Below, in pieces: positions 10,401 through 34,714 of a stretch of 64,000 nucleotides of DNA. The notes beneath the pieces were generated by a model. It saw nothing but the letters and a program-made list of their open reading frames with translations, had not been told where the DNA came from and ran no database searches. Source of the DNA: Alloalcanivorax dieselolei B5 (lineage in GTDB: Bacteria; Pseudomonadota; Gammaproteobacteria; Pseudomonadales; Alcanivoracaceae); NCBI RefSeq assembly GCF_000300005.1, contig NC_018691.1:1302001-1366000 (forward strand), given 5' to 3'. Each line of letters opens with the position of its first letter. Within the stretch, counting starts at the first letter, position 1. A program made the position numbers and the translations under genes.

Positions 10401-10623
10401 TCTGGGGGTGGTGCCGTTGATGGTGGCGTTTGGCGCCAGCGCCAAGACCCAACATGCGATAGGTACGGGCGTGTTCGGCGGCATGGTCAGCGGGACGCTG
10501 CTGGTCATCCTCTTTGTTCCAGTGTTCTTCGTGTTCGTGATGGGTCTTCAGGAACGTTTTAATGGCTGGCGTTCTTCCCGTCGCACCGGGTCATTACAAC
10601 CCCAAGATGACAAGGAGCATTAA
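7477..10623 (+). CDS. RND multidrug efflux transporter (AcrB/MexB/AdeB family)
   Basis: 1048 aa, full length for the HAE1 family. It starts MPRFFIQRPVFAWVVALFII, has the first large periplasmic loop with YPGATPQ, TM4 with the proton-relay pair in GIIVDDAIVVVENVER, and TM10 with the relay lysine in GLSAKNAILIVEFAKQ. It exports drugs, dyes and detergents from the periplasm or inner-membrane leaflet, driven by protons, and requires the adaptor encoded upstream and the outer-membrane channel encoded downstream. Substrate range cannot be read from sequence. The locus resembles adeABC or mexAB-like systems with an adjacent two-component regulator. Confidence 0.95.
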   Translation: MPRFFIQRPVFAWVVALFIILLGVMAIPKLPVAHYPSVAPPSVTITATYPGATPQTMNDAVLSFIERELSSVKNLLYFESSADSSGSASVTATFKPGTDPELAQVDVQNKLKAIEPRLPQAVRQDGLSVESASSSFLMIVGLNSDDGRFDELALNDYMARNMVEELRRIDGVGRVQLFGAEQAMRIWIDPDKLIAYGLSVNDLSAAITQQNAQIVPGSVGASPALPGQKVTTMLTAQGQLKTPEEFAAIILRANVDGSKVVLGDVARVELGAQSYGFSNRENGQPATAAAIQLAPGANAVRTAEGVKTRLAELSQSLPAGMNSSIPFNTAPFVKVSIEKVIHTLIEAMVLVFLVMLLFLQKIRYTLIPALVAPIALLGTFTVMLLAGFSINVLTMFGMVLAIGIIVDDAIVVVENVERIMAKEGLSPKDATIKAMQEITGAVVGITLVLTVVFIPMAFSSGSVGVIYKQFALAMVVSILFSAFLALTLTPALCASLLKPIEPGHHDKGGFFGWFNQALSRMTGRYESRVGRLVARSGGVMLVFVVIAGVLLLAFRQLPSSFLPEEDQGYFMASIQLPANATSERTLDVVKAYESYVMSRPAVDGNMSILGFGFSGSGSNAALTFTTLKDWGQRDGATAANEAEWVQDAMSELSEGTVMSMLPPAIDELGTKSGFTMFLQDRRNQGPAALKAAETKLVELAARSKVVSDVYSDGLPEGASIRLDIDRQKAEALGVSFANISEILSTAMGSSYVNDFPNEGRMQQVILQADASARMQVDDVLRLQVRNVRGGMVPLSEVVTPVWDETPLQMVRYLGYPASSLSGRAAPGASTGEAMAEMERLARQLPPGFAVAWTGQSLQERQSAAQAPVLVALSILAVFLVLAALYESWAIPLSVILVVPLGLLGAVVAMLLRDLPNDVFFKVGMVTVIGLSAKNAILIVEFAKQLREQGSGLMEAAVEAARLRLRPILMTSLAFGLGVVPLMVAFGASAKTQHAIGTGVFGGMVSGTLLVILFVPVFFVFVMGLQERFNGWRSSRRTGSLQPQDDKEH

Positions 10624-17680: not shown

Positions 17681-17763
17681 GAAGCGAAGCCGGATGGCGG
17701 TTGGTGTAAAGTATCAGGGAGTCGGCATTCGGTATCGGGTGCCAAAACAACGGGTGAACGGGC

Positions 17764-17854
17764 CCATAACCAGGCGGTCGACCGGACACCATATCCCTTA
17801 CGGGCTATGGTTCCCTACGCTCCGCTTCGGTGCCGGTTACCGCTAGCGTTATGC
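17764..17854 (+). repeat. Solitary attC-like site behind hxlR
   Basis: R'' CCATAAC (17764-17770) and R' GTTATGC (17848-17854) flank near-complementary arms (AACCAGGCGGTCGACCGG against CCGGTTACCGCTAGCGTT). This 91-bp site sits outside any array and is followed by one cassette gene. Confidence 0.75.
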
Positions 17855-17874
17855 AATCAAGGAGGACAAGCCGC

Positions 17875-18207
17875 ATGGTCACCGACCGTGAAACTGAACT
17901 GGCTGAGCGACTAATCAAGCTACATGACGGAAGGAGCTATCGGGAACTCCAAGAAATGTCGGCACCGCCTAAAGACCCGAATGATGATGGAAAGATCACT
18001 GAGGACATGTATCTGGATATGTGTCGGGATATAGAGAGTGAAATGGGTGCGTTGGAAAGCATTGAGTCTATAGACTGCCTACCGAGAAATGACTCTAAGT
18101 TAACGTTGTGGAAGGCAAAATACAGCAAAAGCGATTTCAAAGTGTTTTGGGCGATTGGATTTGACTCGGAGACATTAAAAGTTCAAGACGTTTTGGTCCA
18201 ATGGTAG
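17875..18207 (+). CDS. Unknown small acidic protein (solitary cassette gene)
   Basis: 110 aa. ATG 17875 is chosen because AAGGAGGACAAG lies directly before it, while the longer frame begins within the attC site. No known domain is recognised. The N-terminal helix is charged (TDRETELAERLIKLHDGRSYRELQEMSA) and the C-terminal half looks like a small beta-sheet (SKSDFKVFWAIGFDSETLKVQDVLVQW). The gene is flanked by GTTATGC on the left and GCATAAC on the right, perfectly complementary core sites, so it is a mobile cassette. Codon use is AT-richer than hxlR. Confidence 0.75.
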   Translation: MVTDRETELAERLIKLHDGRSYRELQEMSAPPKDPNDDGKITEDMYLDMCRDIESEMGALESIESIDCLPRNDSKLTLWKAKYSKSDFKVFWAIGFDSETLKVQDVLVQW

Positions 18208-18209
18208 AT

Positions 18210-18275
18210 GCATAACAAGGCCAGTCAAGGCGACGTCTACTACATTGCGGCTTCGCCTTCATTCCATAGCCGCGC
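18210..18275 (+). repeat. Truncated attC-like site of the solitary cassette
   Basis: R'' GCATAAC (18210-18216) and the left arm plus the central GCGGCTTCGCC loop are visible, but no R' core is found before the next gene. The right part seems lost. The rest of 18276-18359 shows no gene. Confidence 0.55.
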
Positions 18276-18359
18276 GCGCAATGCGATCAGTATAGAAGTC
18301 TCTTGAGACCTGGTTTCAGAACCGGTGCTGTACCTTGCGCGCCGCGTTGTGCACCCGGC

Positions 18360-24275: not shown

Positions 24276-24935
24276 ATGGCAAAAAAAGCGACGCCCGGCC
24301 CGCGCAAAGCCCCGGCCAGCAGCCTGACTCGGGGCCACAAAAAGAAAGCCCGCACCCGGCAGCAGCTGGTGGACGCCGCCCTGCGCATCTACGCCCGCGC
24401 CGGCGTCGGCGACCTCGCCCTCAACACCCTGGCCGAAGAAGCCGGCGTCTCCAACGGCACCGTCTACAACTACTTTCGCTCCCGCGAGCAGGTGCTCGAA
24501 GCCGTCGGCCTGGAGCTGGCCGTCCAGCTCTCGGAACAGATCCTCACCGTCAGCGAAGCCGTCGACAGCGGCGCCGAACGCCTCAGCATCGCCGTGCGCA
24601 CCTTCATGAACAAAGCCCGCACCGACCCGGACTGGACCCGCGCCCTGATCACCGTGGTCCGCTACGCCGAAGGCATGCGCTCCACCCTCGCCACCTACCT
24701 CCGCGCCGACCTGCAAGCCGGCCGCCGCCAAGGCGACTTCCACTACGCCCACGAAGAAATGGCCATGAGCATGGTCATCTCCGCGACCCTGGGCGCCATG
24801 AACCTGCTGGTGGAAGACGGCGAGGTGGAACACGCCGACCGTATTGCGGCGGAGATGGTGCTGCAGGCGCTGGGGGTGCCGCCGGAGAAGGCTAAGGGGA
24901 TTGCTGGGTTGCCGTTGCCGGGGGAGGGTGGCTAG
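24276..24935 (+). CDS. TetR-family transcriptional regulator of the catabolic cluster
   Basis: 219 aa. After a basic tail comes a TetR helix-turn-helix: RQQLVDAALRIYARAGVGDL, then LAEEAGVSNGTVYNYFRSRE. The rest is a helical ligand domain. The start MAKKATPG is chosen after the operator palindrome, whereas the longer frame runs back into the hydroxylase gene. It probably represses itself and the divergent catabolic operons through TCAATATTGA sites. Most of this gene and the repeat after it recur at 30628-31453. Confidence 0.92.
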   Translation: MAKKATPGPRKAPASSLTRGHKKKARTRQQLVDAALRIYARAGVGDLALNTLAEEAGVSNGTVYNYFRSREQVLEAVGLELAVQLSEQILTVSEAVDSGAERLSIAVRTFMNKARTDPDWTRALITVVRYAEGMRSTLATYLRADLQAGRRQGDFHYAHEEMAMSMVISATLGAMNLLVEDGEVEHADRIAAEMVLQALGVPPEKAKGIAGLPLPGEGG

Positions 24936-24958: not shown

Positions 24959-25209
24959 CTGACCTATGATTTATCTGATTTGGCTAATTAGTAAGGGCTT
25001 ACTTAAAAGACCGTCGGAGCTTGGGCGTTGGCGGCTTTTTGTTTTTGGGGGTAGAGGGTTGGCCGAGATGCCAGGGAAATGGCGGTTTGAAGCGTTTGTC
25101 AGTGGGTGGTTTTTCTGGTCTTATTTTGCGTTGGGGGAACTCAGGAAAAGAGTTATGACGCTGGCGCGTTCATTGGATATTGGCGCTGGCGTCCTAATTC
25201 CTGTTATAC
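24959..25209 (+). repeat. Repeat copy 2 ending in attI-like core
   Basis: Begins 24 bp after the tetR stop. It contains the 14-bp palindrome AGTAAGGGCTTACT, a terminator-like GGCGGCTTTTTGTTTTTGGG, the block GTCAGTGG...TTATTTTG and the end GCGTTCATTGGATATT...GGCGTCCTAATTCCTGTTATAC. GTTATAC (25203-25209) is exactly complementary to the R'' GTATAAC of the first cassette's attC at 27300. Similarity with copies 1 and 3 is clear by eye but not measured. Confidence 0.75.
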
Positions 25210-25319
25210 GGTATCGCACGAATCAGCGCTGTTTAACCCTTTACTGCCATAGGTATTTGATGGGGCTGTGGCTCAACGTTAGAAGAGACATTATTTTAAA
25301 AGTTTAAGGGAATTCAACT

Positions 25320-26618
25320 ATGCACTACAAAACGATATCAATTGATAAATGGCGTCAATTTCGAAAGGTGCATATTGAATTGCATAAAAACTTGACACTT
25401 TTGACTGGACCGAATGGTTCCGGCAAAAGTACCTTATTGTCTCTCCTTGAATTGAGCATGCAATCAAACTATCGAGAGCCTTTCCTCGCCACGCCTGTCA
25501 ATGACCAGAAAACAGGGAAATCTGGTTACTCACTGGGTACGCTCTTTGCCCGCTTTAATCCCTTTATAAAGACTGAAGAGAGTAATGAGCAGTCTGTACA
25601 GCACGAAATCGGAGCAATAGTTTACAGTTCGGGTGCGGTAGCTAAATTACGGACAAGCAACTCGGACGCCTTGCAGTATCATGTCAACCTGTCTAATCAA
25701 AATACAGTTGTCGGCTTTAAGATTGCATCTCACCGAGCGCTACCAAGGTACCAGGCTGTTCAATCTTTACCTGTTTCGGGAATGCGGCCGAAAGAAGCGT
25801 TCGAATATTTTTCTCAAGCTCAAAGCCACTACCAACGTGGCGATCGCTACCATCGCGAGGGCAAAACAGTTCAAAATCCCGTTGCCCCAATGAAGGAAAC
25901 TCTGATCGGATTTGCCGCGTTTGGAGCTGATAATGCGCACATGAAGGCTGTTCCAGAACTCATTGGTCTGTATGACGATTTTCAGAACCTCCTGAGCACT
26001 CTGCTACCTGAAGAAATAGGTTTCCAGCGGCTAGAGGTTCGCAGTCCAGAAATAGTGGTTGTCTCTAAAGCGGGCGAGTTTCCCATAGACTCTGCGTCAG
26101 GCGGACTTATGTCTCTGGTCCAAACCGCGTGGCAAATTTTTCTCTATACAAAAGGACATGGAGAAGCGGCGGTCGTACTAATCGATGAGCCTGAAAATCA
26201 CCTTCACCCATCTCTGCAACGAGACTTTCTTGGGAACCTTGTAAGAGCGTTTCCTAGTGTCCAGTTTGTCGTAGCAACGCACTCCCCATTCGTTATTACT
26301 TCCGTGAGAGATTCTAAGGTATATGCGCTTCGATACTCACAATTCGACAAAAATGCGAATGAGTCTGGATCAGCCGTGACGGCCCAAGAGATCGATTTTG
26401 TCAGCAAAGCGAGAACCGCGGATAAGATTCTTGATGAGGTTCTTGGGGTATCTGTCACTATACCTGTCTGGGCTGAGCATGACCTTACTCTGATCGTAAA
26501 TAGGTTTGAAAGAACTGAATTGTCAGAGGTCGCTATAAATAATCTCCGCGCAGAGCTGGAATCAGCAGGGTTGTCTGAGTTTCTTCCTGAAGCAATAGGG
26601 AGGATTGCTCGTGATTAA
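25320..26618 (+). CDS. ptuA: PtuA-like AAA ATPase of a Septu-type defence system (cassette gene)
   Basis: 432 aa. Walker A GPNGSGKSTL is near residue 35, an SMC/OLD-like ABC signature region SASGGLMSLVQTAWQ is near 260, Walker B AVVLIDEPENHLHPSLQ near 290 and the switch His in FVVATHSPFV. The family is the AAA_21/OLD-like ATPases. Coupled to a downstream HNH nuclease by an 8-bp overlap, it matches the two-gene Septu anti-phage system. Strongly AT-rich compared with tetR upstream, indicating transfer. It lies inside an integron-type cassette. Confidence 0.85.
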   Translation: MHYKTISIDKWRQFRKVHIELHKNLTLLTGPNGSGKSTLLSLLELSMQSNYREPFLATPVNDQKTGKSGYSLGTLFARFNPFIKTEESNEQSVQHEIGAIVYSSGAVAKLRTSNSDALQYHVNLSNQNTVVGFKIASHRALPRYQAVQSLPVSGMRPKEAFEYFSQAQSHYQRGDRYHREGKTVQNPVAPMKETLIGFAAFGADNAHMKAVPELIGLYDDFQNLLSTLLPEEIGFQRLEVRSPEIVVVSKAGEFPIDSASGGLMSLVQTAWQIFLYTKGHGEAAVVLIDEPENHLHPSLQRDFLGNLVRAFPSVQFVVATHSPFVITSVRDSKVYALRYSQFDKNANESGSAVTAQEIDFVSKARTADKILDEVLGVSVTIPVWAEHDLTLIVNRFERTELSEVAINNLRAELESAGLSEFLPEAIGRIARD

Positions 26619-27237
26619 GCTTACCAAAGGCCCTGAGCCAGAAGTCTTGATTAACAATAAGGGGAGGTGGACGCGTGATCTTCTCGCTGCTATCGAGGAG
26701 GGAAATGCGGAGAAAATAAGGGCGGTGACGAAGCGTTATAATCATTCAGAAGTGAAGACCGCGCTAAAGGAAGAAACTCGCCAAAAATGCGCCTACTGCG
26801 AAGCAAATGTCACAGATGTGGCCCATGGTGACATCGAACACGTCGCCCCAAAATCTATAAGTAGGGATAAAACATTTGAGTGGGAAAATCTTACCTTCAC
26901 CTGCCAAATCTGCAATCAAAATAAATCGAATAAAGAAGGTTTTGTAGATCCATATAAGGAAGAACCCGATGAACATATCTTCTTCGCCGGGGCATTTGCC
27001 AAGGGCAAGAGTTTAAAGGGGACTCTAACAGTAGCTGAACTGAAATTAAATAGAATTGCTCTGATCGAGAGTCGAAACCGCGAAATTGAGCGCTATGCCG
27101 ACCAATTGGAAAAGGTTTTTCTAATCCCGGATGAGCGCACTAAAGAATTGCTCCTAGCGAGCATGCTGAATGAGTTAGATGGCGGCCGGCCAGAATTTAT
27201 TGCGGCTTGCCGTATGGTATTAAGTCAATACAGATAG
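26611..27237 (+). CDS. ptuB: PtuB-like HNH endonuclease of a Septu-type system (cassette gene)
   Basis: 208 aa. A zinc-finger HNH core is seen: CAYCEA ... DIEHVAPKSISRD ... WENLTFTCQICNQNKSNK (~residues 50-115), with two CxxC pairs and the central His. The C-terminal helical part (RNREIERYADQLEKVF) resembles the partners of PtuA and of retron-associated ATPases. GTG 26611 is preferred because AGGGAGGA precedes it. It overlaps ptuA (GTGATTAA), so translation is coupled. Expected role: DNA cleavage after phage sensing by PtuA. Confidence 0.82.
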   Translation: MIKLTKGPEPEVLINNKGRWTRDLLAAIEEGNAEKIRAVTKRYNHSEVKTALKEETRQKCAYCEANVTDVAHGDIEHVAPKSISRDKTFEWENLTFTCQICNQNKSNKEGFVDPYKEEPDEHIFFAGAFAKGKSLKGTLTVAELKLNRIALIESRNREIERYADQLEKVFLIPDERTKELLLASMLNELDGGRPEFIAACRMVLSQYR

Positions 27238-27299
27238 GTAGCGGATTAACGGTCCGCGGGCTGGCATGTCTGGGCGAGTTGTAGTCCGCTTAATATACT

Positions 27300-27375
27300 G
27301 TATAACAAGCGGCTGTTTGTCGGACGCACCTGCGCTGGGGCTCCTCCGGTGCGCCGCAAAACCAGGGCGCTAGGC
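27300..27375 (+). repeat. attC-like site after the Septu cassette
   Basis: R'' GTATAAC (27300-27306) and R' GCTAGGC (27369-27375) enclose complementary arms (CGGACGCACC against GGTGCGCCG). GTATAAC is the exact complement of the GTTATAC at the cassette's left end, as required if the two-gene unit moves as one circle. Confidence 0.85.
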
Positions 27376-27398
27376 ATCAATCAGAGGGGGGGCGCAAA

Positions 27399-27635
27399 TT
27401 GTCAGAAGCAAGTGCGATGACCTTCATTGTGTCGCGTGGCAATGAGGCGGGGATTGTGCTTACGCCACACCTGCACGAAGATGGCAAGTATGTCGCAAGC
27501 ATGACTGACTATATTCGGGTTGAGTCAATCCGGGAGCTCAGGATCCTAGCCAAGCATGGTTTCGGCATCCGTATGATTAGTGACAGCAGCGTGAAACAGC
27601 GGGCGCCTAGCCTCATTTCACCTAGCTCTTTGTAG
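27399..27635 (+). CDS. Unknown small protein (cassette gene)
   Basis: 78 aa from TTG 27399, preceded by a G-rich RBS (AGAGGGGGGG). No domain recognised. The core MTFIVSRGNEAGIVLTPHLHEDGKYVASMTDYIRVESIRELRILAKHGFGIRM is well-behaved protein sequence resembling short orphan cassette proteins. The C-terminal ~10 codons overlap the R'' GCCTAGC of the following attC, which is common in cassettes and suggests that the last residues are not critical. Confidence 0.6.
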   Translation: MSEASAMTFIVSRGNEAGIVLTPHLHEDGKYVASMTDYIRVESIRELRILAKHGFGIRMISDSSVKQRAPSLISPSSL

Positions 27636-27679
27636 ATCGAGCACCGCGGCCAGCTGTCGAGACCTAATACCTGTTATAG
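27605..27679 (+). repeat. attC-like site whose right half is an attI-like core
   Basis: R'' GCCTAGC (27605-27611) is the exact complement of GCTAGGC at 27369. The right end, AGCTGTCGAGACCTAATACC followed by TGTTATAG, is nearly identical to the attI-like end of repeat copy 1 (AGCTGGCGTCCTAATACC, TGTTATG). The site is therefore a hybrid, or a second attI-like core inside the array. Confidence 0.6.
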
Positions 27680-27699
27680 CTTAGGCGAGGTATGAAGCA

Positions 27700-28059
27700 T
27701 TGATTGAGTTATTTGAGATCTACGGCGTTCAGCTTTCCGCACTGGGTGCGGCGATCGCTTTCATATTCGGCGTGTACAAATTTCAAGCTGAAAGGAAAGC
27801 CACCCATTTCTGGAGGGAATTCGAGGCTTATCATAAGCTTGTCAAGGAACTGGTAGAGCCGTCATCCGAGGACGGCGCCATGTATGTGGATCGTCAGGCC
27901 GCTGCAGTTTACGAGCTACGCTTTTATAGCCGTTACTATCCACACTCGCTCAGGATGCTCAAAGGTCTTAGAGAAAAGTGGGGGGCTGTTTCAGGCCGGT
28001 ACCCTCGACTAATAGATGAACTGGATTTAAGTATCGAATACATCAGTGGCAGGCTATAA
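27700..28059 (+). CDS. Unknown membrane-anchored small protein (cassette gene)
   Basis: 119 aa from TTG 27700, with AGGCGAGGTATGAAG upstream. One N-terminal transmembrane segment (VQLSALGAAIAFIFGVYKF, ~10-28) is followed by a cytoplasmic charged helical domain with WREFEAYHKLVKELVEPSSEDG and LRFYSRYYPHSLRMLKGLREKW. The shape, one TM and then a small soluble domain, is common for uncharacterised cassette and defence-associated proteins. Cores GTTATAGC (left) and GCTATAA (right) are complementary, marking one mobile unit. Confidence 0.7.
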   Translation: MIELFEIYGVQLSALGAAIAFIFGVYKFQAERKATHFWREFEAYHKLVKELVEPSSEDGAMYVDRQAAAVYELRFYSRYYPHSLRMLKGLREKWGAVSGRYPRLIDELDLSIEYISGRL

Positions 28060-28117
28060 AAATCGGAATCAATTCGGCCCTTCGACGTCGCTTCGCTCGT
28101 TGTCGTGGGCGTTAGGC
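28053..28117 (+). repeat. attC-like recombination site
   Basis: R'' GCTATAA (28053-28059, containing the stop of the 119-aa gene) and R' GTTAGGC (28111-28117), with a compact hairpin TCGACGTCGCTTCGCTCGTTGTCG-type centre. Confidence 0.7.
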
Positions 28118-28131
28118 GTATAGGAGGCTGA

Positions 28132-28806
28132 GTGCCGGAACTAGAAGACGTCTGTGCAAACCTCAGGGAACATTCGGCGATGCTTGCGCAATCGTCGGAG
28201 AATCAATGGCCGAATACTCCTTCGCCAGTTGATGAACCGGTGCGGAGCATCCTTATCAGGGGCTCGGAAATTATTCGAGGAGCTGCCGATCTTGGCGTGT
28301 CAGAAAACCCGACCGCATTGGCAATCTTGTCTCGGCAGTTACTGGAATTGTTCATATCGCTTCACTGGGTAACATCGTCGTCAGATCGAGCGGAAAGGTA
28401 CACTGAATTTTCACTAAATGAACTTGATCGACTGACGCAGATGGCCATGAAAGACGGCTTGCTCTCCGTAAAGGAAATAGCAGGCGGCGCCGACGCCACG
28501 AAGGAATTTCTGTCAGAGCGAGATAGGCCCCAAAAGGGCGTTTCGATTGAGCAACAGGCCCGTGAATCCGGGATTCTACACCTTTACCAGGTTTTCTACA
28601 GGTTCATGTCATTAGATACACACGGAAAATCCAAAACGGTAATTGATAAAGTCAAACGTTCAGAGTTAACACTAGTCCACCTTCAAGCAGTGGGCGCAAT
28701 GTCACAAGTGTTTGGGCATACTGCCATATTATGGCTGCTTCATCGTCAAAGACCTACTAATGATAAAATACGTGAACTTTTGGGGCTCAATAGCAAAGCT
28801 GTCTAA
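28132..28806 (+). CDS. DUF5677-like protein of unknown function (cassette gene)
   Basis: 224 aa from GTG 28132 with AGGAGGCTGA directly upstream. All-helical. The segment IIRGAADLGVSENPTALAILSRQLLELFISLHWVTSSSDRAERYTEF and the later LYQVFYRFMSLDTHGKSKTV resemble DUF5677/HEPN-like helical proteins often found in cassettes and near defence genes, but the catalytic HEPN RxxxxH motif is not seen. Function unknown. It lies between two attC-like sites. Confidence 0.65.
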   Translation: MPELEDVCANLREHSAMLAQSSENQWPNTPSPVDEPVRSILIRGSEIIRGAADLGVSENPTALAILSRQLLELFISLHWVTSSSDRAERYTEFSLNELDRLTQMAMKDGLLSVKEIAGGADATKEFLSERDRPQKGVSIEQQARESGILHLYQVFYRFMSLDTHGKSKTVIDKVKRSELTLVHLQAVGAMSQVFGHTAILWLLHRQRPTNDKIRELLGLNSKAV

Positions 28807-28874
28807 TAGTCGCGGGCACAGAGGCGGCTGGCTGCGCTGCCACTACAAGGCCGCGCGTGCTGCGGGTGTTACGG
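28801..28874 (+). repeat. attC-like recombination site
   Basis: R'' GTCTAAT (28801-28807, at the stop of the DUF5677-like gene) and degenerate R' GTTACGG (28868-28874). The central part is GC-rich with TGGCTGCGCTGCCA. Confidence 0.55.
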
Positions 28875-28883
28875 GGCTAACTC

Positions 28884-29618
28884 ATGAGCTCTGAGCTTAG
28901 AAGAACGCTGGCCCTGGGTCAGGAATTGCTCAATGCAGTTAGCTTAATAAAAGCCGGTTTTGGTCAGATTCAACATATCGGTTCTGGAAATGATTTCTAC
29001 CACCTGCCGCTGCTGACGTTGGCTAGTGGTTTTGAGCGGTTCATGAAAGTCACATTGTGCTTTCGCTGTCTTGAGGGAAATGGCAGCTTTCCAACCAAAG
29101 CGATTTTTCCGTCGGGGCGAAGAGGACATGACCTCAATCTCTTGCTCAAAAAAATCCGAACAGAATGCTTCTTGGTTGATTATATTAACAATGTCCCAGT
29201 AGCTCAGAGTGATTTCGAATACTTAAATTCAAAGGGCCTTCTTGCTTTCGTTTCTGTGCTTAGTGATTTTGGGCAAGCGGCGCGGTATCACAATCTGGAC
29301 GTAATCGTAGGTCGCCAAGTGCAGACTAACGATCCTGACGCAGCGTGGCAACGCCTCGAAACTGAGATCCTTTTGGCTCGCAAGGATTTTATGGATGAGA
29401 TAGAAAAGAATCCTGCTAGCAACCGAATTCGCATAGAAATCAACAACGAGGTTGTTTCCCGACTTGAACGGTTGGCGCGGGCTATCGCAAGGCTATACAC
29501 GATAGGTGGGATCGGTAGCGAAGCCAAAAGGTACCTGGTGTACATCGGCTGTTTTCTCCACTTGACGGATGCTGGGCTTGGAACAAAAAAGTATGAACTT
29601 TCGGGCAGGGCTCCGTAG
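28884..29618 (+). CDS. Unknown helical protein (cassette gene)
   Basis: 244 aa. No domain is assigned. It is helical throughout, with HLPLLTLASGFERFMKVTLCFRCLEGNG near the N-terminus, reminiscent of HEPN/DUF-type proteins related to the preceding cassette gene, then RRGHDLNLLLKKIRTECF. The RGHDLNLLLKK stretch is similar in type to the RxxxxH region of HEPN folds (here RRGHDL), so a HEPN-like protein is possible but unproven. Bounded by attC-like sites, AT-richer than chromosomal neighbours. Confidence 0.65.
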   Translation: MSSELRRTLALGQELLNAVSLIKAGFGQIQHIGSGNDFYHLPLLTLASGFERFMKVTLCFRCLEGNGSFPTKAIFPSGRRGHDLNLLLKKIRTECFLVDYINNVPVAQSDFEYLNSKGLLAFVSVLSDFGQAARYHNLDVIVGRQVQTNDPDAAWQRLETEILLARKDFMDEIEKNPASNRIRIEINNEVVSRLERLARAIARLYTIGGIGSEAKRYLVYIGCFLHLTDAGLGTKKYELSGRAP

Positions 29619-29627
29619 CAATCAGCC

Positions 29628-29677
29628 GCATAACAACCGATTTCCCGCTGCTTCGCGGCTCCAAGGGTGCGTTGACG
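29628..29677 (+). repeat. attC-like recombination site, last of the array
   Basis: R'' GCATAAC (29628-29634) and R' GTTGACG (29671-29677) surround the short hairpin CCGCTGCTTCGCGG. Confidence 0.65.
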
Positions 29678-30000
29678 CCAATGGGTGACGCCGTGATGGC
29701 GCCTTCGCGCCCGAAATGCGGGTGCCGATGATACTCATGCACTGGCCTACAACAGCCTGCCAGACGGAGTATTCCAGAGGCTTTCACGCCTATGCGCAAC
29801 GATCAATGCTATGCGCAATCAATGCTGCGTATAGGCAGGACTAAAAGGCCGTAAGACCGGCACCGACGACGAGCGCAAAGGCTTTTGAGGGTGCCTGGAC
29901 AAACACCGTGCCTGCTGCCGCCGGTTGGTAGACGGAATTGATCCGGCGCAAAAGCTCGGTATGATATTGACATGCTATTTGGGGTCCAGGAGTACCCACT
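29678..30000. other. Non-coding stretch between cassette array and parDE
   Basis: No convincing gene. It contains short repeats (CTATGCGCAA twice, with TCAATGCT after each) near 29790-29825 and, just before parD, a probable promoter/operator region with GGTATGATATTGACATGC. The repeats could be debris of a lost element. Confidence 0.4.
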
Positions 30001-30267
30001 ATGAGCATGCACCGGAAAACCATCACCCTGACCGAACAACAAGACGGCTGGGTAAAAAGCCGGATCGAAAGCGGCCAGTTCGGCAACGACAGTGAGTATA
30101 TCCGCCATCTGATCCGGCAGGACCAGCAAGCCCAGGAACGGCTTGCCACTCTCAGGCAGGCCCTGGTTGAGGGTGAAGCAAGCGGCGAGCCCAAGCCGGT
30201 CGATATGGCGGCGATCAAGGCGGCTGGCCGTAAGCGGATGAAGGCGCCGGAGTGGTGCGCACGCTGA
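30001..30267 (+). CDS. parD: ParD-family antitoxin
   Basis: 88 aa. The ribbon-helix-helix N-terminus KTITLTEQQDGWVKSRIESGQFGNDSEYIRHLIRQDQ is characteristic of ParD/CC2985-type antitoxins. The helical C-terminus (ERLATLRQALVEGEASGEPKPVDMAAIKAAGRKRM) would wrap the toxin. An RBS (GGAG) precedes the ATG. It overlaps the parE remnant by 16 bp. Because the toxin is broken, it now stands alone but could still repress its own promoter. Confidence 0.9.
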   Translation: MSMHRKTITLTEQQDGWVKSRIESGQFGNDSEYIRHLIRQDQQAQERLATLRQALVEGEASGEPKPVDMAAIKAAGRKRMKAPEWCAR

Positions 30268-30537
30268 GCCTTACACCAAAGGCGGAATCCGACCTCATCG
30301 ACATCTGGGTGTATACCTGCGAAGAGTGGGGCGTGGATCAGGCCGATGACGACCTTGATCAGCTGTATGCGGGCATGAGGCCGCTGATTCTGGACCGACT
30401 ACGCCCATGTTCTTCCCGGGTATCGCTGATTGCAGGTCGAGCATCGCGCGGTGTTCTATCGAGTGCTGGAAGCGAAGGTGCTAGTGGTTCGTGTGCTGCA
30501 TGAGTACATGGATGCACCGGAAAGGCTTTTGGATTAA
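30252..30537 (+). pseudogene. parE: parE toxin gene, frameshifted and stop-interrupted
   Basis: The frame starts as a normal ParE (RTLSLTPKAESDLIDIWVYTCEEWGVDQAD). After ~45 codons it loses frame around 30395. The expected continuation DYAHVLPGYR is found in another frame, followed by an in-frame TGA, then LQVEHRAVFYRVLEAKVLVVRVLHE and an end at TAA 30535-30537. At least one frameshift and one nonsense mutation inactivate it. This loss makes the adjacent antitoxin unopposed. Confidence 0.85.
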
Positions 30538-30627
30538 GCGAGTACGTGTTCCCCGGTGCCGCTCCGAATGGCTCTCGGCCCCATCTGTGGCGTCTCTGTG
30601 GGCCATGCAGCCGACAACAACGGCTGG

Positions 30628-31151
30628 ACGCCGCCCTGCGCATCTACGCCCGCGCCGGCGTCGGCGACCTCGCCCTCAACACCCTCGCCGAAGAAGCCGG
30701 CGTCTCCAACGGCACCGTCTACAACTACTTCCGCTCCCGCGAAAAAGTGCTCGAAGCCGTCGGCCTGGAACTGGCCGTCCAGCTCTCCGAGCAGATCCTC
30801 ACCGTCAGCGGAGCCGTGGACAGCGGCGCCGAACGCCTCAGCATCGCCGTGCGCACCTTCATGAACAAAGCCCGCACCGACCCGGACTGGACCCGCGCCC
30901 TGATCACCGTGGTCCGCTACGCCGAAGGCATGCGCTCCACCCTCGCCACCTACCTCCGCGCCGACCTCCAAGCCGGCCGCCGCCAAGGCGACTTCCACTA
31001 CGCCCACGAAGAAATGGCCATGAGCATGGAGATCTCCGCCACCCTGGGCGCCATGAACCTGCTGGTGGAAGACGGCGAAGTGGAGCATGCAGACAGTATT
31101 GCCGCGGAGATGGTGCTGCAGGCGCTTGGGGGTGCCGTCGGAGAAGGCTAA
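30628..31151 (+). pseudogene. Partial duplicate of the catabolic tetR gene
   Basis: From LDAALRIYARAGVGDL onward the sequence is nearly identical to the tetR at 24276-24935, with scattered substitutions (for example REQV to REKV). It lacks the native N-terminal tail, being joined to unrelated sequence behind parE, and its end is altered by a frameshift (GGAVGEG). It could still be translated from an upstream GTG (30546) as a fusion retaining the HTH. The same type of repeat follows it as follows the intact gene. Confidence 0.85.
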
Positions 31152-31214
31152 GCGGATTACTGGGTTGGCGTTGCCGGAGGAGGGTGAATAGCTGGAATCG
31201 ACGCAGCTTGAGGA

Positions 31215-31453
31215 CTGACCTGGGGTTTATCTGATTTGGGGAATTAGTAAGGGCTTACTTAGAAGGCTGTTGGGGGCCTTTATGTCTTTGGGTGAGATAA
31301 GGTTGGCCTGGATGTCAGGAGGCGGGTGTCTCGAAGCGTTTGTCAGTGGAGGACTTTTGTGGTCTTATTTTGTGTAAGAGGAAATAGAAAAAAGAGATAT
31401 GACACTGGGGCGTTCATTGGATATTCACGTCGGTGCCCCAATGCCTGTGATAC
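31215..31453 (+). repeat. Repeat copy 3 ending in attI-like core
   Basis: Follows the tetR duplicate exactly as copy 2 follows the intact tetR: TGACCT, AGTAAGGGCTTACT palindrome, GTCAGTGG and TTATTTTG blocks, then GCGTTCATTGGATATT and CCCAATGCCTGTGATAC. The core GTGATAC (31447-31453) differs from GTTATAC by one base, which might weaken it as a recombination site. Confidence 0.75.
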
Positions 31454-33136: not shown

Positions 33137-34714
33137 TCAGGCGGAGGTCGGCGCCCAGTTTTGCGGCAGGAGTTCGTCGATGGCGTTGTTCTTGTGCGTC
33201 GGCAGCCGAGCCAGCACATCCTTCAGATACGCATAAGGATCGTGGCCGTTCAGCTTCGCCGACTGGATCAGGCTCATGACGGCGGCCGCACGTTGACCAC
33301 TGCGCAGAGAGCCCGCGAACAGCCAGTTATTGCGCCCCAGCGCCCAGGGGCGGATCTGGTTTTCCACCCGGTTGTTGTCGATCGGCACCGCGCCATCGTC
33401 CAGGTAGCGCGTCAGCGCCGCCCAGCGTTTCAGGCTGTAGTCCAGGGCTTTGGCCGTACCCGAGCCGTCCGGGACTTTTTGCCGTCGGGAGATCATCCAT
33501 TGGTGCAGGGCGTCGGCGATGGGCCGGGCTTTTTCGTTGCGCAAGCGCTGGCGGTCTTTATCCGGCAGATCCTTCGCCTCTCGCTCGATCCCGTACAGCG
33601 CACCGATGGACTCCAGCGCTTGGGCGGCCAGCTCACTCTTGTTGGCCACGTGCAGGTCGTGGAACTTGCGACGGGCGTGCGCCAGGCAACCGATCTCGGT
33701 AATGCCCTCGCCGAAGCCCGCCTTATAGCCAGCGTAGTCGTCACACACCAGCTTGCCATGCCAGTCCCCCAGGAAGGCGCGGGCGTGTGCGCCCGCCCGG
33801 CTGGGCGCGAAGTCGTAGACCGTGGCCTTCAGTTCAGAGAACGAGGTGCTGCAGTAAGCCCACACATAGGCCCGGTGGGTTTTCTTCTTGCCCGGTGCCA
33901 GCATCGCTACCGGCGTTTCATCCGCGTGCAGCACCGGCTGGGCTAGCAACTGGGCTCTGAGCGCATCCACCAGTGGCTGCAACCACACACCGCAGGTGCC
34001 CACCCACTCGGCCAGGGTGGAACGGGGGATCGCCAGACCGGCCCGGCCGAAGATGCGCTCCTGGCGGTACAGGGGCAGATGATCGGCGTACTTGGCCACC
34101 AGCACCTGGGCCAGCAGCCCAGACGTCGGGATGCCTTTGTCGATGACTTGCCTCGGCACCGGCGCCTGGATCAAGGTCTCGCATTGCTCGCAGGCCCACT
34201 TGCCCCGGATATGGCGCTCCACCGTGAACTCGCCCGGCACGTAGTCCAGCTTCTCGCTGATGTCCTCGCCGACGCGCTTGAGCGCACACCCACAGCGGCA
34301 TTGCGTATCCTCGGGTTCATGGTGGATCAGGGTGCGGGGCAGTTGGGGCGGTAGCGGGGCGCGCTTGGGCTGTTGCTTGGCAGCGGCGGGGGGCGCCTGC
34401 GTTGGAAGTAACTCGGCCAGCTCCGCCTCCATGGCGGCCAGGTCGGCGTCGATCAGTTCGTCAAGCAACTGGCCCTGCACGCCCTTGAACTGCTCGCTGC
34501 GCCGGGCGAACTTGTGGCGCTTGAGCAGCGCCAGTTCGTGGGCCTGTTTCTCGATCACCGCGTCGCGGTGACGGATCGCTTTTTCTTGTTGGCTGAGGGT
34601 CCGGTCATTTTGGGCGAGGACCCGATCCTTGCTCTCCAAGTGATCGAACAACTCGGTGGCCAGGGCACGGAGTTGGTCGGGAGAGAGGGCGTTGAGGTCA
34701 GGGCGCGAGGTCAT
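33137..34714 (-). CDS. tnpC: IS66 transposase TnpC
   Basis: 525 aa. Order of parts: N-terminal coiled region with SKDRVLAQNDRTLSQQEKAIRHRD, a zinc-finger-like HEPEDTQCRCGCALKR, then WACEQCETLIQAPVPRQVIDKG, and the DDE core with LHADETPVAML, LVCDDYAGYKAGF and VENQIRPWALGRNNWLFAGSLRSG (catalytic Glu). It ends with the C-terminal IS66 box HKNNAIDELLPQNW. Full length for the family, probably functional. Confidence 0.95.
   Translation of the reverse strand: MTSRPDLNALSPDQLRALATELFDHLESKDRVLAQNDRTLSQQEKAIRHRDAVIEKQAHELALLKRHKFARRSEQFKGVQGQLLDELIDADLAAMEAELAELLPTQAPPAAAKQQPKRAPLPPQLPRTLIHHEPEDTQCRCGCALKRVGEDISEKLDYVPGEFTVERHIRGKWACEQCETLIQAPVPRQVIDKGIPTSGLLAQVLVAKYADHLPLYRQERIFGRAGLAIPRSTLAEWVGTCGVWLQPLVDALRAQLLAQPVLHADETPVAMLAPGKKKTHRAYVWAYCSTSFSELKATVYDFAPSRAGAHARAFLGDWHGKLVCDDYAGYKAGFGEGITEIGCLAHARRKFHDLHVANKSELAAQALESIGALYGIEREAKDLPDKDRQRLRNEKARPIADALHQWMISRRQKVPDGSGTAKALDYSLKRWAALTRYLDDGAVPIDNNRVENQIRPWALGRNNWLFAGSLRSGQRAAAVMSLIQSAKLNGHDPYAYLKDVLARLPTHKNNAIDELLPQNWAPTSA

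Follow-up and report, generated by a model that had tools for sequence, protein, structure and literature searches.

A Septu operon predicted to form a single two-gene integron cassette behind an orphan attI in Alloalcanivorax dieselolei

In the window, the 64,000-nucleotide stretch of the Alloalcanivorax dieselolei B5 genome analyzed here, positions 25204–27369 very probably constitute a single integron cassette with a complete Septu operon, which an integron integrase (IntI) placed in the first position, at an attI behind a tetR gene. The sequence-only reading had proposed that the two Septu genes travel as one integron-type cassette, and this proposal is well supported: the unit is bordered by an attI on the left and an attC on the right, and no attC was detected between the genes. 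The elements of the cassette are as follows.

25151–25209, + strand: attI without an adjoining integrase gene, crossover G25203|T25204, nhmmer 64.0 bits to the attI profile
25204–27369, + strand: two-gene cassette, 2,166 bp, whose start heptamer GTTATAC exactly complements the R'' GTATAAC of its own attC
25320–26618, + strand: ptuA, AAA-type ATPase, 432 aa, PADLOC PDLC00290, E = 4.6e-153
26611–27237, + strand: ptuB, HNH nuclease, 208 aa, GTG start, PADLOC PDLC00337, E = 1.5e-68, and PF01844
27300–27375, + strand: attC of the ptuAB cassette, R'' GTATAAC, R' GCTAGGC (27369–27375), detector score 31.9

The PtuA ATPase and the PtuB nuclease

The assignment of the pair as a Septu-like PtuA ATPase and PtuB HNH nuclease, also made in the sequence-only reading, is borne out by the profile searches. 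The PADLOC matches, to the PtuA1 and PtuB1 models, span nearly the full length of both proteins. Above the curated Pfam cut-offs, AAA_15/AAA_21 and HNH were found, and PF01844 reaches 30.7 bits against a cut-off of 21.4, so that the HNH character of PtuB is confirmed by this profile in addition to the PtuB1 match. PtuA carries both Walker A (GPNGSGKST) and Walker B (VLIDEPENHLHP), and these regions are kept in its relatives. C63, H77, N93, C98, C101, and N102 of PtuB are conserved with relatives. Both ORFs are intact with conserved catalytic motifs, and the HNH gene is adjacent to ptuA in the same operon, the start of ptuB overlapping the stop of ptuA by 8 bp. Since the starts of relatives align at GTG 26611, this codon is best taken as the ptuB start and is likelier than the mechanically called TTG at 26605.

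The pair thus resembles known Septu systems in its two-gene operon of PtuA ATPase and PtuB HNH nuclease with intact Walker and HNH motifs, and differs from them in lying between attI and attC and in being distant in sequence from characterized members. PtuA chains of known structure, among them 8ee4 and 9kjx, are similar to the cassette PtuA (E about 1e-14), which shares no more than 45% identity with any relative found. A PtuA-PtuB pair could also serve as the effectors of a retron of type I-A (Ec78-like). The Ec78 models do match (NF041760 for PtuA, 101 bits; NF041761 for PtuB, 49 bits), but these scores are far below the model cut-offs of 500 and 150 bits; no reverse transcriptase was found among the neighboring proteins scanned, and no Rfam match was found in the window. 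A retron is therefore highly improbable, and by sequence the genes appear to be a stand-alone Septu pair.

Published PtuAB systems cut DNA or tRNA-Tyr (PMC11555353, PMC13096335). By analogy with published systems, PtuA would restrain PtuB until infection, and on infection the PtuA-gated HNH nuclease of PtuB would act in defense. The genes may be expressed from upstream transcription or from the leader of roughly 117 bp; no promoter above chance was found upstream of ptuAB. The first position of an integron usually has the highest expression (PMC12409362).

Borders of the cassette

A search of 95 genomes found sequences homologous to the left border in 29, including each of the 12 congeners. 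In one relative (G029), the homologue lies directly upstream of an intact IntI gene in divergent orientation; since this is the arrangement of an integron, it supports the identity of 25151–25209 as an attI. When the 38 attI copies are aligned, which is possible without gaps, they are conserved as far as G|TT and variable beyond, as expected because different cassettes come next. The ptuAB cassette starts at this G|TT (crossover 25203|25204), and since the left site is an attI, it stands in the first position. The alignment also contains a 9-bp dyad (columns 8–16 and 36–44; window 25150–25212), in which 90.6% of the cells pair against at most 51% when the arms are slid; double changes number 15, compared with 3.7 in shuffles. 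Much of this covariation may go back to a single change inherited within a sister genus. The dyad could be explained by a folded strand or by a two-fold protein site.

The right border was evaluated with a home-made attC detector trained on 26 attC from family arrays beside IntI genes or fragments. The site at 27300–27375 exceeds with its score the maximum of 23.4 in ten shuffles of the 8.1-kb region. An untrained motif-plus-stem scan did not separate real sites from shuffles and was replaced by the family-trained detector. The bottom-strand fold of the attC is only modestly better than that of shuffles (z = −1.8 for the linear form and −2.2 for the circle junction), and in the predicted fold of the circle junction R'' and R' form a 7-bp stem. 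The core of R' downstream of the ptuAB attC is GCT, not the intact GTT. The altered base lies beyond the crossover, which follows G27369, and is therefore part of the downstream neighbor and not of the ptuAB cassette. A ptuAB circle would restore R' as G + TTATAC (GTTATAC), fully complementary to R''.

The heptamers GTTATAC (25203–25209, + strand) and GTATAAC (27300–27306), between which the sequence-only reading had placed PtuA and PtuB, are indeed exact complements (7/7) enclosing the ORFs at 25320–26618 and 26611–27237. This match alone is little proof, since the heptamer GTTATAC occurs 6 times on the two strands of the window against 1.9 expected. Cassettes in the family arrays tend to begin with a heptamer that is the reverse complement of the R'' in the same cassette: exact complementarity was found for 15 of the 27 attI sites, including that of the ptuAB cassette, which ends in an attC obeying this rule. 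The ptuAB cassette is the longest of the 15 cases (2,166 bp), and R'' lies 237–1,227 bp past attI in the others. The cassette borders are settled better by this complementarity than by folding.

No second site scoring at least 12 with the family attC detector was found between 25203 and 27300. Since no attC-like site was detected between them, ptuA and ptuB share one attC and thus form one two-gene cassette. Two details of the sequence-only reading need correction. It had taken both flanking sites for attC, which stands for the right site, by its score and its fold, whereas on the left lies an attI R box. Its span of 25203–27375 runs to the end of the attC R' box at 27375, and the cassette proper is 25204–27369.

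Related PtuAB cassettes

In genome contigs, an alignment query retrieved 80 loci, and a single PtuA query retrieved none. The plasmid search gave no near DNA match; the best plasmid match was Vibrio tubiashii p251 (L096, 39% identity), whose PtuAB genes lie between two VCR-type attC, with none seen between the genes. When a strict two-sided complement test was applied to 100 related pairs, 7 passed, against 0.4 expected and a maximum of 3 in 200 shuffles. By inspection of the passing loci, those of V. tubiashii, Shewanella (L155), and a gammaproteobacterial MAG (L150) are convincing, the latter two having PtuAB with both cassette ends, and that of Cyanobium (L168) is tentative. The remaining three (L180, L191, and L212) were not counted, their sites being unlike attC on inspection. 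One-sided cassette evidence was found in Bowmanella (L189), Paraglaciecola (L098), and Pseudomonadales (L177 and L051), and no convincing attC was found at PtuAB of Azoarcus pAZKH (L097). Ten proteins from six of these loci were scanned, and their best PADLOC models are those of the window pair.

In a tree with 104 PtuA proteins, cassette-borne members are scattered and the label needs six changes, and the idea that cassette-borne PtuAB pairs form one clade was rejected on these grounds. Because six changes are needed, the tree indicates that integrons captured PtuAB repeatedly and independently, rather than that a single cassette lineage spread. Many other PtuAB relatives sit on viral contigs and are probably prophage cargo.

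According to a review (PMC12409362), phage-defense genes occur as cassettes in integrons both chromosomal and mobile (Darracq 2025, Getz 2025, Kieffer 2025); these cassettes are reported to be of streamlined size, systems of more than two genes being absent. The ptuAB cassette likewise presents genes with a predicted phage-defense function as an integron cassette. It differs from the reported ones in that the genome has no functional integrase, the attI is an orphan behind tetR, the host belongs to the Alcanivoracaceae, and the Septu operon is complete. Two-ORF cassettes and trans-mobilizable CALINs have also been described (PMC12444791). With integron-borne defense and two-ORF cassettes already published, the ptuAB cassette adds a well-supported case that fits the recent view of integrons as phage-defense libraries. 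It is a clean example of a complete, named two-gene defense operon in one cassette, a packaging that arose several times independently for one Septu subtype. It makes testable whether the size limit of cassettes favors compact systems of two genes, and whether a cassette in first position still protects its host once the integrase is gone.

Orphan attI copies and loss of the integrase

The surroundings of the ptuAB cassette contain further cassette borders and a duplicated tetR end.

24276–24935, + strand: tetR-family regulator gene (Pfam TetR_N and TetR_C_40), with the attI copy carried by its 3' end and the region downstream
27661–27678, + strand: core-only attI-like site CCTAATACCTGTTATAG at the start of the next cassette, weak nhmmer match (11.4 bits, E = 0.086)
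27674–28111, + strand: next cassette, with a 119-aa ORF (27700–28059) and the attC at 28054–28117
28054–28117, + strand: attC of the 119-aa cassette, score 28.0, R' GTTAGGC
30607–31186, + strand: 5'-truncated tetR copy, 94.5% DNA identity to the 3' part of tetR from 24352 on
31394–31453, + strand: second attI-like copy, core GTGATAC, nhmmer 52.6 bits

In the next cassette, the opening heptamer GTTATAG can pair at 6 of 7 positions with R'' CTATAAA (28054). Its core-only site is similar to Delta-attI-type cassettes, in which a partial attI forms the cassette border and is experimentally functional in mobile integrons (PMC12901181), but here the likeness consists of a weak 18-nt match only.

The array at 25204–30606 is bracketed by the full tetR and the truncated copy, with an attI-like site after each. 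The ptuAB genes might have come by homologous recombination or with a genomic island between the duplicated tetR ends, the heptamer match being incidental. The tetR copies do flank 25210–30606, similar tetR and parDE duplications occur in several sister genomes, and no integrase is present now. On the other hand, the attI crossover coincides exactly with the left boundary, a scored attC forms the right one, and the two ends match as complements 7/7, which makes such an origin quite unlikely. An island could still have brought a ready-made ptuAB cassette from another strain. As for the tetR duplications themselves, which are also found in sister species, homologous recombination between copies and IntI acting on secondary sites would both fit.

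The insertion by IntI proposed here would have taken place before IntI was lost or by IntI acting in trans. No intact intI was found in the genome: nothing exceeded the TIGR02249 cut-off, and only N-terminal IntI fragments were detected. One of these (C1:579380–579514) adjoins a further attI copy (C1:579656–579749), and a second array (L095, C1:320000–334000) contains strong attC sites near an 89-aa N-terminal IntI remnant (325564–325737). The ptuAB array is not a complete integron with a functional intI in cis. With the sites at 27300–27375 and 28054–28117, it contains the at least two attC without intI that characterize a CALIN (PMC12444791), from which it differs in keeping its attI and in the multiple attI copies of the genome. 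At present the ptuAB cassette can probably move only if an integrase is provided in trans. It is possible, though doubtful, that ptuAB is a decayed and immobile fossil that provides no phage defense in this host: the GCT core downstream, the loss of intI, and the lack of a clear promoter would agree with decay, while the intact ORFs, the conserved catalytic motifs, and the position of ptuAB first behind attI argue against it.

A 3' fragment of guaA (1319–1978) is likewise a duplicate, lying some kilobases downstream of the complete guaA, and is followed by an attI (2073–2130) and then by cassettes encoding a GNAT protein, a glyoxalase-like protein, an unnamed ORF, and a NUDIX protein. In a sister species (G008), the first cassette behind the guaA-attI encodes a bSEFIR protein (L092, 6572–7486). 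Copies of attI without an adjacent functional intI in the one genome are those at 2073–2130, 25151–25209, and 31394–31453 of the window, that at C1:579656–579749, and that at 10401–10458 of L093; a sister genome (G003) has up to 8 attI matches. The genus has several orphan attI per genome behind guaA and tetR copies, many of them loaded with cassettes, which was less expected and raises the question of several integron entry points per genome. We tentatively suggest that these orphan attI sites, duplicated along with the guaA and tetR 3' ends and without intI in cis, may act as distributed landing pads loaded by an integrase in trans, although this is less likely than not to be the case. If so, each genome would offer several first positions for defense cassettes, such as ptuAB here and bSEFIR in the sister species.

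Other features were observed in the window. An isolated cassette-like unit lies at 17754–18300, where an attC (17764–17854) ending in GTTATGC is followed by an ORF and then by GCATAACAAGG, complementary 7/7. Genes for a ParD antitoxin and a ParE-like toxin (30001–30503) directly precede the truncated tetR copy, and a similar junction is found in sister species. An IS66-family transposase is encoded on the minus strand at 33137–34714.
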